A program made the translations under genes and the position numbers. A stretch of 64,000 nt of DNA. Origin: Methanoculleus marisnigri JR1. Lineage in GTDB: Archaea; Halobacteriota; Methanomicrobia; Methanomicrobiales; Methanoculleaceae. The stretch lies in contig NC_009051.1 of NCBI RefSeq assembly GCF_000015825.1, positions 2,040,695 to 2,104,694 of the forward strand, in the 5' to 3' direction. A model generated the notes under the pieces. That model worked only from the letters and a program-made list of their open reading frames with translations. It was not told the DNA's origin and searched no databases. Positions 39,897 to 44,454 of this stretch are shown piece by piece. The stretch's first letter is position 1, and each line of letters starts with the position of its first letter.

Positions 39897-39931
39897 TACG
39901 ATTCAGTCAAGACGTTATAGAGCACTTGTGT

Positions 39932-40004
39932 GCCGCCATAACTCAGTTGGTAGAGTGGCTGGCTGTTAACCAGCATGTCACAGGTTCGAGTCCTGTTGGC
40001 GGCG
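39932..40004 (+). tRNA. tRNA-Asn (GTT)
   Basis: A full cloverleaf of 73 bases: acceptor GCCGCCA/TGGCGGC with discriminator G, D arm ACTC..GAGT, anticodon stem GCTGG/CCAGC around CTGTTAA (anticodon GTT), T arm ACAGG/CCTGT with GTTCGAGTC. No intron; CCA is not encoded. It lies between the regulator gene and dacB. Confidence 0.97.
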
Positions 40005-40162
40005 TTTTCGTCTCCTGTCTTTCCAGCAGAATCACGCCATGTTTCACCCCGTTTTTTCATTCCCGTGATCCCTCCCCCCTGAAGGGGCGAAGATCCGTAC
40101 ACCCCACTGTTGTCCCAATCGTTTTCACAACGCCTAAATCCGCAGAACTCAAACCTCCGCCT

Positions 40163-41758
40163 ATGGATGCGCAAATTCCCGGAACGCCGCCGGCAGGTCG
40201 CCGGCTGCTCACCGTCACGGGCGCAGTATTGATCGTTCTTGCCGCGCTCTGCGCTGCGGGCTGCACCGCCACATCCCCGGCCGAGACCGTTATAGCGTCC
40301 GAAGCCGCGAACGCAACCGAATTTAAAGAACGGATCGACGCCGTCATCTCGCAGGAGCGGTATGATTACGCCACGTGGGGCATGATGGCGCGGGACACCT
40401 CCACCGGCGAGGTGCTGCTCTCGATGAACGGCGACCGTCTCTTCACGCCGGGTTCGACGACGAAGGTCTTCACCGTCTCGACCGCTCTCGACGTTCTCGG
40501 CCCCGACTACCGGTTCAGGACGCCGGTGTACCGGGTCGGCGACGATCTGGTGCTGGTGGCCTCGGGCGACCTTGCGATGGGCGGTCGGGCCGGGCCGAAC
40601 GGCACCCTTGCGTTCACGAACGAGGATCACGGCGATGCCCGGGCATTCGGGGACTGCCTGCTCGTCGACGCCGACCCGCTCGCCGGGCTCGAGAACCTGG
40701 CCGAACAGGTTGCTGCGGCCGGGATCACGGCGGTAGACGACGTAATCGTCGACGACCGGCTCTTTTGCGAGACGCAGATGATGTCTGAAGGGCTGGTGAC
40801 GCCGATCGTCGTCAACGACAACCTGATCGACGTGACGATCGTTCCCGGGCGCGAGGGAGAGCCGGCGACGGCCGACTGGCGGCCGCGATCGTCCGCATAC
40901 ACGATCGAGAGCCGCGTCGTGACCGGGGCGCCGGGTTCTGACCCGGCGGTGGCGATCCCCGCCTACACCGGGCAGGCGTTGATCGAGGTGACCGGGACGG
41001 TGCCGGCGGACGCAGGACCGGTCAACCTGACCTCGAACGTGGAGATCCCGGCGGCGTTCGCGAGAAGCCTCTTCATCGACGCGCTTGAGAACGCCGGGGT
41101 GGCGGTCGTGGCACCGGCGGCCGGGGAGAACCCGTCGGGCCGCCTTCCCGACGAGTACGGGTCGGTCGGGAGAGTCGCCGAACTCGTCTCTTTGCCGTTC
41201 TCCGAGTACGCGAAGGTGACCCTGAAGGTGAGCCAGAACCTCTACGCAAACTGCCTGCTCGGGATCATCGCCGCCCACGAGGGCTACGATACGGTCGAGG
41301 CCGGGCTCTTTGTCGAAGGGGCGTTTCTCGAAGAGATCGGGGTGAACCCCGACACCCTGCTGCTTGCCGACGGCGAGGGGAGCATCGTGAACCGGATCAG
41401 CCCCCTCGCGGCGACCGATCTCGCGGCCTACATGGCGGGGACGGACCTGTATGCCCCGCTCTCCGACGCCCTGCCGGTCCTCGGCGTGGACGGGACGCTT
41501 GCAGCCAATGCCAAGCCGGGAGACCCGGGTTACGGTGCGATCCGTGCCAAGACCGGAACCTCGGCGGGCGGCGACCAGCAGGGCGGGATCTTCCTCTATA
41601 CCCGCGGCCTGCTCGGCTACATGACGACGGCGAAGGGAACGCCGGTCACGTTTGCGATCTACGTCAACAACATCGCCGGCCTTGCGTCGATGGACGACCT
41701 GCAGGGCGTGACGGACGATGTAAACGACGTCGCGGTTCTGATATACGAGTATCTCTGA
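40163..41758 (+). CDS. DacB/PBP4-like D-alanyl-D-alanine carboxypeptidase (S13) lipoprotein
   Basis: A 531-residue exported serine peptidase of family S13. Signal with lipobox-like end CAAGC near residue 33. The active-site tetrad is S-T-T-K in PGSTTKVFTVS, the second motif is around KVSQNLYANCLLG (S-x-N type), and the third is K-T-G in AKTGTSAGG. A long insert between motifs 1 and 2 (DLVLVASGDLAMG onward) fits PBP4. This is odd for an archaeon lacking murein: it may act on other peptides or esters. Bacterial origin by transfer is plausible but codon use looks native. Start ATG 40163. Confidence 0.85.
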   Translation: MDAQIPGTPPAGRRLLTVTGAVLIVLAALCAAGCTATSPAETVIASEAANATEFKERIDAVISQERYDYATWGMMARDTSTGEVLLSMNGDRLFTPGSTTKVFTVSTALDVLGPDYRFRTPVYRVGDDLVLVASGDLAMGGRAGPNGTLAFTNEDHGDARAFGDCLLVDADPLAGLENLAEQVAAAGITAVDDVIVDDRLFCETQMMSEGLVTPIVVNDNLIDVTIVPGREGEPATADWRPRSSAYTIESRVVTGAPGSDPAVAIPAYTGQALIEVTGTVPADAGPVNLTSNVEIPAAFARSLFIDALENAGVAVVAPAAGENPSGRLPDEYGSVGRVAELVSLPFSEYAKVTLKVSQNLYANCLLGIIAAHEGYDTVEAGLFVEGAFLEEIGVNPDTLLLADGEGSIVNRISPLAATDLAAYMAGTDLYAPLSDALPVLGVDGTLAANAKPGDPGYGAIRAKTGTSAGGDQQGGIFLYTRGLLGYMTTAKGTPVTFAIYVNNIAGLASMDDLQGVTDDVNDVAVLIYEYL

Positions 41759-42837: not shown

Positions 42838-44289
42838 TCACCTCAGCCACCCGAGCTTGTAGAAGACCCAGCCGACCACGAGCATCGAGATGATCGTCCA
42901 GGCGGTCACCTGCCAGATGGAGAGGCTGAAGGGGGTGCCGAGGATGTTCGTCCCGAGCACCTGCCCGATCAGGGTCGGGATCAGCACGAGTGCCGAGAGG
43001 ACGGCGATCACCCGCATCGCCCGGTTCATCTCGTAGGAGACGGTGTTAATGTGGACGTCGATCAGGGAGAGGAGCCCCTCCCGGATGTTCCCGGCGCTCT
43101 CGTGCAGATAATCCGTCTCGTTCGCGAGCGCGTCGAAGATGCTCTTCTCTCCTGCCCGCGATTTCGTAGAGGGGAGATCCCTCGCGATGACCGTCGTCAC
43201 CTCCCTCTGGTGGAAGAGGCTTGAAGCCAGAACGCTGCTCACGCGCTTGAGCTGGAAGACGGTATCAAGGAAGTCCTTCGACATCTCGTTGTTGGGGGTT
43301 CCCTCAAGCCGCATCAGTTCGGCCTCCAGCTCCGCGAGGATCCGGGCGTAGTTCTCGTTGATCCCATCAAGGGAGCCGTAGAGGACCCGGGTGTCCAGGG
43401 GCACGCCGGCGAGTGCGCTCCCGTCGAGGCCCGCCCGGATCGGTCCGAAGAAGCGGTCTTCTGCTTTCGAGACGGTGACGATCGTCTTGCCCCGGTTCAC
43501 GATGATGAGCCCGACGTTTGTCACGACCGGGACCCGCACCCCGTTTTGAACGCGGAGCGTCCGCTCCGGCGCCTGCACGAAGATGAGCCGGGTCTTGTCG
43601 GCAAACGTAATCCCGGGGTGCGACGGTCGCATCAGCCGGCTCTCGAAGAAGACGCCGGGCAGATCGAGGAGCCCGGAGAGCACCGGGAAGTCCGGACGCG
43701 ACACACCGGAGAGGTCGAACCAGGCCTCGACCCGGGGGTCGTCAAGATACCTCTTCACCTCGGCGGGGGTGAACCCCCTCTCGCCGTCTCTGGAATCCCC
43801 CACTCTCCCCCGGATCCGCATCGTCGAGAACGCCGGTTCCGCAGGCACCGCGACGGCAGTCTCCGGCTCGATCCGCCGCTCAACCGATCTTCCGCCGGCC
43901 GCCGCCACCCGGACCACCCGGAGGAGCCGGAGCGCCGGCGAAGACCTCGCGAGGGTCGAACCGGCAACCGGCACCACCTCGAGGACCGGGAGCGTGATGA
44001 TGACAAGATCGAGGAGATGCCAGCGGTCCAGGAAATGACTCACCGGGTCCTCCGCAAGGGCCAGTTTGAGGACGTATTCGAGGACGAAGATGGCGATGAT
44101 CGTGGTATCGGCCATATTGAGGAATTCGACGACCGGTGGGGAGAGGGTCGGGAGCAGGAGAGGTATGATGACGATGGGGGCCATTACCAGGCCGAGGAAG
44201 ATCATCAGGCCGTCGGAAAGGATGCGGTAGACGAGACCCCTGAGATCTGCCTTCCTCTCCTGTCGGGTCTTTCCTGCAGCCTGTTGCAT
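42838..44289 (-). CDS. Voltage-sensor-like domain fused to a CorA-type transporter
   Basis: A 483-residue membrane protein from ATG 44289. The N-terminal 130 residues form four hydrophobic segments like the S1-S4 of ion-channel voltage sensors: an acidic S2 (IFVLEYVLKLAL), S3 with aspartate (WHLLDLVIITLPVLEV) and an arginine-bearing S4 (LRLLRVVRV). The pore S5-S6 is absent. After a linker comes a CorA-like cytoplasmic alpha/beta and long-helix domain (about 190-420) and two C-terminal membrane helices. The CorA signature G-M-N appears as G-T-N (QVLGTNILG). Probably a divalent-cation channel with an added membrane sensor. Confidence 0.8.
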   Translation of the reverse strand: MQQAAGKTRQERKADLRGLVYRILSDGLMIFLGLVMAPIVIIPLLLPTLSPPVVEFLNMADTTIIAIFVLEYVLKLALAEDPVSHFLDRWHLLDLVIITLPVLEVVPVAGSTLARSSPALRLLRVVRVAAAGGRSVERRIEPETAVAVPAEPAFSTMRIRGRVGDSRDGERGFTPAEVKRYLDDPRVEAWFDLSGVSRPDFPVLSGLLDLPGVFFESRLMRPSHPGITFADKTRLIFVQAPERTLRVQNGVRVPVVTNVGLIIVNRGKTIVTVSKAEDRFFGPIRAGLDGSALAGVPLDTRVLYGSLDGINENYARILAELEAELMRLEGTPNNEMSKDFLDTVFQLKRVSSVLASSLFHQREVTTVIARDLPSTKSRAGEKSIFDALANETDYLHESAGNIREGLLSLIDVHINTVSYEMNRAMRVIAVLSALVLIPTLIGQVLGTNILGTPFSLSIWQVTAWTIISMLVVGWVFYKLGWLR

Positions 44290-44454
44290 ACCGTCACCAG
44301 AAACCGGACCCGCAGATCCCGGCGTCACCGGGTATACGCCTTTCCGTATATAGCAGGTGGGAGGCCGATCGCCGGGGACGGACCGGAACCCGTGCATGCC
44401 CCCTCTCGGGAACCCGGGAAAGAATGATAGTCCTGCCGGGCGTACCTGACAATC

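Follow-up and report, generated by a model that had tools for sequence, protein, structure and literature searches.

A voltage-sensor-like S1-S4 domain joined to a CorA-type protein in Methanoculleus marisnigri and its relatives

We describe a gene of Methanoculleus marisnigri JR1, located in a 64,000-nucleotide stretch of its genome (hereinafter the window; NC_009051.1, positions 2,040,695 to 2,104,694), whose product belongs to a conserved protein family and joins a domain homologous to voltage sensors with one homologous to CorA. Coupling of membrane voltage to divalent-ion flux appears to be the best reading of this architecture. Specifically, we see about an even chance that the protein forms a pentameric divalent-cation channel of the CorA (2-TM-GxN) type, which carries one S1-S4 sensor per subunit and is gated or tuned by voltage.

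Results

Gene and domain architecture

The features of the gene are collected in Table 1. A longer reading frame, from 44898, was considered and dropped because the starts of homologous genes and the GGTGA motif point to the ATG at 44289; close members of the genus share both the gene start and the GGTGA context, and a relative in Methanoculleus sp. MH98A is 98% identical. The host genome is a single contig of 2.48 Mb, in which Ion_trans is matched by the fusion gene only and which also carries two ordinary CorA genes. These two genes, both with a GMN filter, lie close together outside the window (G000:C1:767101-770207; L001 and L002).

Table 1. Features of the fusion gene and its product (coordinates in the window)
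Feature	Coordinates	Strand	Basis
VSD-CorA fusion gene, 483 aa	42838..44289	(-)	single uninterrupted ORF; ATG 44289, stop 42838-42840
TATATA box-like candidate promoter element	44347..44352	(-)	about 60 nt 5' of ATG; by eye
GGTGA Shine-Dalgarno-like motif	44294..44298	(-)	4 nt 5' of ATG; by eye
S1-S4 voltage-sensor domain (VSD), residues 25-130	43900..44217	(-)	Pfam, PDB sequence matches to Nav/Cav VSDs, models
S1 helix, residues 26-45	44155..44214	(-)	model helix 26-45; alignment
S2 helix, residues 51-78, F68 and E71 charge-transfer motif	44056..44139	(-)	model helix 51-78
S3 region, residues 82-105, W90 and D94	43975..44046	(-)	model helices 82-87, 89-105
S4 region, residues 110-140, Arg 115, 121, 124, 127, 134	43870..43962	(-)	alignment, pN/pS
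Poorly conserved linker, residues 141-157	43819..43869	(-)	pLDDT, pN/pS
CorA cytoplasmic alpha/beta and long-helix (funnel) domain, residues 158-420	43030..43818	(-)	Pfam, models, alignment
CorA pore helix TM1, residues 421-445, N422 and M425	42955..43029	(-)	alignment
GxN filter, Gly446-Thr447-Asn448	42946..42954	(-)	sequence, alignment
CorA TM2, residues 458-478	42856..42918	(-)	model helix 458-478

The fusion of an S1-S4 domain to CorA, claimed by a first-pass annotation made from the sequence alone, is borne out in one open reading frame: Pfam Ion_trans (PF00520) matches residues 29-128 with 39.1 bits (cut-off 25), and CorA (PF01544) matches residues 190-478 with 106.2 bits (cut-off 27). 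These are the only domains reported in the protein at E values up to 1, a range in which Pfam gave no PTEN-like phosphatase domain. The Ion_trans match spans profile positions 6-102 of 241, that is, S1-S4 only, and CorA comes next; S5-pore-S6 is absent after S4, in agreement with the annotation's statement that pore helices are lacking. The score against the NCBIfam CorA equivalog TIGR00383 (64.2 bits) is under the cut-off of 200.75, so that the protein is a relative of CorA rather than an ordinary CorA, and the hyperpolarization-activated K+ channel family NF040645 is matched with 20 bits, under its cut-off of 300. Both domains were matched in all 16 members of set A1 and in each of the nine further divergent members scanned. 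The full-length model has a mean pLDDT of 74 and a pTM of 0.55.

The kept neighbours of the gene, a DUF5683-like gene and one for a periplasmic binding protein, likewise border a locus in which the fusion is decayed (L053) and therefore give no pointer to a partner. Elsewhere in the window, a gene at 39926-41758 (+) matches Peptidase_S13 (D-Ala-D-Ala carboxypeptidase), which is notable for a methanogen; methanogens should be without murein.

Distribution of the fusion

A search for this architecture in other archaea, which the first-pass annotation had proposed, located it in Methanoculleus, in a second Methanomicrobiales family (f6), in Methanothrix and in a further family from the phylum (f36), and the fusion was found in Verrucomicrobiota as well. 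Among 232 genomes of the order, those with full-length copies are 13 from the window's genus (73-100% identity; L009 has an in-frame TGA) and nine from f6 (26-32% identity), and others have fragments. Across 392 genomes of the phylum, matches with E values of 1e-20 or lower were obtained in 17, comprising 12 nearly full-length copies, one VSD fragment and four CorA-only matches. Of the 50 genomes from the Methanothrix order, five gave matches (two of them by partial or split copies only), as did eight of 34 genomes of f36 (one partial), one of 301 Chloroflexota genomes (a split gene) and three of 240 Verrucomicrobiota genomes (one cut by the contig end). Because one bacterial fusion sits within 444 kb of contiguous sequence in a 5.7-Mb genome and another adjoins, by eye, genes for an outer-membrane assembly protein and pyruvate kinase, the bacterial fusions do not have the look of archaeal contamination. 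No relatives were found in viral contigs, plasmids or phages.

In a tree of the CorA part, which covers 34 fusions and five ordinary archaeal CorAs and has long branches, a 100/100 branch separates all the fusions from the ordinary CorAs, and the Methanothrix fusions form two separate lineages.

The family also shows repeated loss, with decayed remnants in relatives (L017/L094, L031/L053 and L092) and a ruin in G011. Its patchy occurrence and occasional decay within the genus mark the gene as dispensable. A frameshift or stop splits the gene in a Chloroflexi MAG (L042:320-1794), in L028 and in L081/L082; the break in L042 is near S4 and leaves separate VSD and CorA frames. At nine loci of the f6 clade (L018, L020, L021, L023, L024, L025, L026, L029 and L030), a gene for a protein of 184-194 aa lies no more than about 60 bases 3' of the fusion gene (e.g. 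L045:6468-7022). This protein belongs to no Pfam or NCBIfam family, apparently has hydrophobic helices near the C-terminus and is a possible accessory subunit; its gene was not found beside L019, L022 and L027, nor in the window's genus.

The residue counts given below refer to an alignment of 36 fusions from Methanoculleus, f6, Methanothrix, f36 and Verrucomicrobiota, with identities down to about 25%. The counts omit incomplete copies and those that are split or frameshifted (L017, L027-L031, L042, L080-L082, L089 and their duplicates among L051-L055) and keep L009, with its TGA near the end, and L007, in which three S4 residues are deleted; the N-terminus of L020 is shortened by the chosen start.

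The S1-S4 half

The S2 glutamate, S3 aspartate and arginine-bearing S4 that the first-pass annotation had noticed can be assigned to E71, D94 and R115, R121, R124 and R127. S2 of the window protein reads F68-x-x-E71-Y-x-x-K75 and S4 reads R115-x5-R121-x2-R124-x2-R127, its second register position being taken by P118, such that four of the five every-third positions (R115, P118, R121, R124, R127) are basic. The membrane part of S1 (residues 27-45) holds no acidic residue in this protein. F68, E71 and R121 do not vary in the alignment (36/36 each), and W90 (34/36), D94 (32/36), R115 (31/36), R124 (27/36) and R127 (25/36) are retained in most; the f6 clade for the most part has Arg at 115, 118 and 121, with Gln at 124 and 127. 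In two Methanothrix sequences (L076 and L079), S4 contains an 8-residue insertion that repeats an Arg-containing unit (RVLPRVLPRVL), which suggests an extended or altered S4.

When compared with PDB sequences, the 129-residue S1-S4 segment matched Nav and T-type Cav channels at E values from 6e-13 to 1e-9, which are whole-sequence values summing four repeats, single repeats scoring lower. At the level of structure, the N-terminus of the full model aligned with the VSDs of Nav1.5, Nav1.7, Nav1.8, P/Q-type Cav and NavPaS over 116-124 residues at Z 11.2-12.0, a range that omits one row with an rmsd of 19.4. The VSD-only model (pLDDT 70) aligned with Nav, Cav and NavAb VSDs at Z 11.8-13.0 among the matches listed, helical bundles being able to reach about Z 13 by chance, and its best Foldseek row was the VSD of Ci-VSP (4g7v; TM 0.69, E 0.016), with no row under E 0.001. 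Structure prediction, to which the annotation had entrusted the question of kinship, thus relates the N-terminal helices to voltage sensors. Given the level that Z can reach by chance, we take this fold match as supporting evidence and give most weight to the sequence match and to the conservation of the motifs; the claim of a VSD fold stands on the TM, Z and sequence matches taken together. Confidence in the VSD models is moderate (pLDDT 70-74, less than 50 at the start of the S4 helix), and the linker is modelled poorly (pLDDT <50 at residues 132-153). From its sequence, we consider the N-terminus of the window protein to be a genuine VSD.

The CorA half

With the full model as the query, all Foldseek matches listed were CorA, Thermotoga first (best E 9.7e-16). 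Alignment with solved structures gave Z 24.9 over 315 residues for Thermotoga maritima CorA (TmCorA) and Z 22.2 for Methanocaldococcus jannaschii CorA, followed by CmaX (Z 19.9), full-length ZntB (Z 18.6) and human MRS2 (Z 15.8). TM1 and the filter form the most conserved stretch of the fusions, with a mean entropy of 1.01 bits vs 2.00 for the cytoplasmic part: M425 and G446 are invariant (36/36 each), N448 is present in 35 of the 36 sequences and N422 in 33.

The annotation had correctly read G-T-N in place of G-M-N in the window protein, and its further suggestion, that the altered filter signifies changed selectivity or loss of classical Mg transport, is unsupported. GTN occurs in six of the 13 genus sequences (the window's subclade) and in two Methanothrix sequences, and the remaining seven genus members have GMN; over all 36 fusions, the middle residue is Met in 18, Thr in eight, Glu in five, Val in four and Ser in one. 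GTN as a mark of lost Mg2+ transport was accordingly dropped, considering that sister species have GMN and that the middle residue drifts. To judge by its occurrence, GTN is a late, local state, and GEN in f36 is the more striking change. This G-E-N filter is found in five f36 sequences (L066, L083-L086) and might place a carboxylate ring at the pore mouth. One member of the family reads GMK (L024).

In TmCorA, intracellular metal at residues 89 and 253 has a part in gating, according to PMC3629940, and titles of PDB entries among the CorA matches name a D89R/D253R mutant. These positions, mapped via ordinary archaeal CorAs, correspond to S217 and A387 in the window protein. Asp is found at neither column in any of 34 fusions vs both columns in all five ordinary archaeal CorAs, and the second column (D253) is without Asp in all 36 fusions as well. 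Furthermore, in 34 of 34 fusions the MPEL loop is swapped for a different loop that is three alignment columns shorter, and the TM1 threonines 295 and 299 of TmCorA correspond, by a gapless count from the filter, to Ala429 and Ala433 in the window protein. The lost D89/D253 pair and MPEL loop, rather than GTN, are the stronger departures from ordinary CorA. The aspartate pair may be missing also from some ordinary CorA subgroups, Mrs2 and ZntB, so that voltage need not have taken over where the pair is lost.

Selection on the two domains

We computed pN/pS on 10 of the 13 genus rows and six of the nine f6 rows. Within the VSD, the lowest values are those of S4 (residues 110-130), at 0.14 in the genus clade and 0.19 in the f6 clade; the corresponding values are 0.49 and 0.63 for the linker (residues 131-180) and 0.25 and 0.13 for the pore. 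These substitution patterns show the VSD and the CorA part both evolving under purifying selection with the working residues kept.

Discussion

The interpretation offered by the first-pass annotation is partly supported by the present results. Under the preferred reading, five peripheral voltage sensors would surround a central CorA pore; the membrane potential would move S4, the cytoplasmic end of which would feed into the CorA funnel, and the resulting change in the funnel would alter the open probability or the rate of flux of Mg2+ or a related divalent cation. Because the intracellular Mg2+ sensor pair is absent, voltage may replace, or add to, the Mg2+ feedback of ordinary CorA. The flux through CorA is driven by the membrane potential, as stated in PMC6972854, and hence voltage gating would have a sensible output: the likely use is to open or shut a potential-driven path of divalent entry in step with changes in cell energisation. 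The simplest mechanism, from S4 to the funnel to pore opening, would resemble that of SLC9C1 in logic, not by homology. The poor conservation of the linker argues for a contact between the domains over a rigid lever and, combined with its poor modelling, explains why no coupling element was picked out. The gating charge may be small, given that only three to four S4 arginines are in register, that the second position is Pro and that Gln mostly takes positions 124 and 127 in f6. A more far-reaching claim, namely that this is a truly voltage-gated prokaryotic CorA family in which five VSDs drive a pentameric divalent pore and voltage has replaced Mg2+ feedback, is one that we advance tentatively, as a possibility with the odds somewhat against it.

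Several other explanations have to be weighed. The S1-S4 domain might keep the VSD fold and serve as a membrane anchor, an assembly domain or a lipid-sensing domain, while CorA conducts without voltage gating. We regard this as unlikely, if a serious contender: few charges in S4, the proline at its second position, the variable linker, the loss of the S3 Asp in four of the 36 sequences and the genus member L007, the frame of which is still open despite three missing S4 residues including one Arg, all speak for it, but a mere anchor would need neither the invariant F68, E71 and R121 nor an S4 that is the most constrained part in two separate clades. It is rather improbable that the protein is a voltage- or membrane-regulated signalling protein, with a non-conducting CorA part that acts as a sensor rather than as a transporter. 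The retention of the filter Gly and Asn and of the pore-lining residues, the high conservation of TM1 and the filter and the low pN/pS of the pore speak against such a role, which would be compatible with the variable middle residue of GxN, the lost MPEL loop, GMK in L024 and the alanines that stand for the TM1 threonines of TmCorA.

We attach very little probability to the idea that the VSD itself conducts, by proton permeation of the Hv1 kind, with CorA as a scaffold only. Hv1 needs an Asp in S1, and the membrane part of S1 in the window protein is devoid of acidic residues. In PMC13095418, pore-less VSDs are described as capable of being proton channels, as in Hv1, but Hv channels are reported to be absent from bacteria and archaea. 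Finally, there is practically no chance that two adjacent genes were fused by accident or in assembly. Some draft genomes do contain frameshifted or split copies (L042, L028, L081/L082), but the gene is one unbroken frame both in this single-contig genome and in many assemblies from several lineages, and the same join kept across these lineages rules out an artefact.

The preferred reading, a voltage-gated or voltage-tuned CorA-type channel, can be set against several known systems. The fusion shares with the 2-TM-GxN proteins of T. maritima and M. jannaschii the Pfam CorA domain, the funnel fold, two C-terminal TM helices, GxN and the pore Asn and Met; unlike ordinary CorA, the window protein has an added S1-S4 domain, GTN, a shorter loop in place of MPEL and no D89/D253 pair. 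CmaX and ZntB have the fold of the C-terminal part, and their solved chains of about 327 residues align over the CorA part only. With the PF00520 VSDs of Nav, Cav and NavAb, the fusion has in common the four helices, the S2 F-x-x-E, the S3 Asp and an Arg at every third residue of S4, but it has CorA in place of S5-pore-S6. Ci-VSP likewise bears its VSD on a non-pore effector, which is a lipid phosphatase as opposed to the CorA channel of the fusion. In the sperm Na+/H+ exchanger SLC9C1, too, a VSD is attached to an ion-moving protein outside the classical voltage-gated channels, and the abstract of PMC10620092 describes it as the sole transporter known to be under VSD control; unlike the fusion, it is a eukaryotic dimer that combines a 13-TM transporter with a cyclic-nucleotide domain (PMC13095418) and has no CorA.

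The VSD and CorA domains are each classical, and their fusion is apparently undescribed: we found no description of it in the literature searched, most subscription journals being outside that search. PMC3581485 names both PF01544 and PF00520, but in separate proteins, searches of PMC8865849 and PMC6927688 yielded nothing of use on the sensor site or on voltage, and PMC9276622 supplied background only. The carriers of VSDs outside the channel type that are named in PMC10620092 and PMC13095418 are eukaryotic, namely proton channels, lipid phosphatases, TMEM266 and SLC9C1.

VSDs are otherwise almost confined to classical voltage-gated channels, and the existence of a conserved VSD-CorA family among methanogens and in some bacteria would demonstrate that voltage sensors have been put on other ion-moving machines by prokaryotes, too. 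If the more far-reaching claim holds, the family would represent a prokaryotic VSD effector beyond the classical tetrameric channels, with fivefold instead of fourfold symmetry. The family offers a small natural system for direct tests of Mg2+ homeostasis under a changing membrane potential and of the electromechanical coupling of a pentameric pore. Because the fusion recurs in other archaea and in a few bacteria, cells may control the entry of metal ions by membrane voltage.
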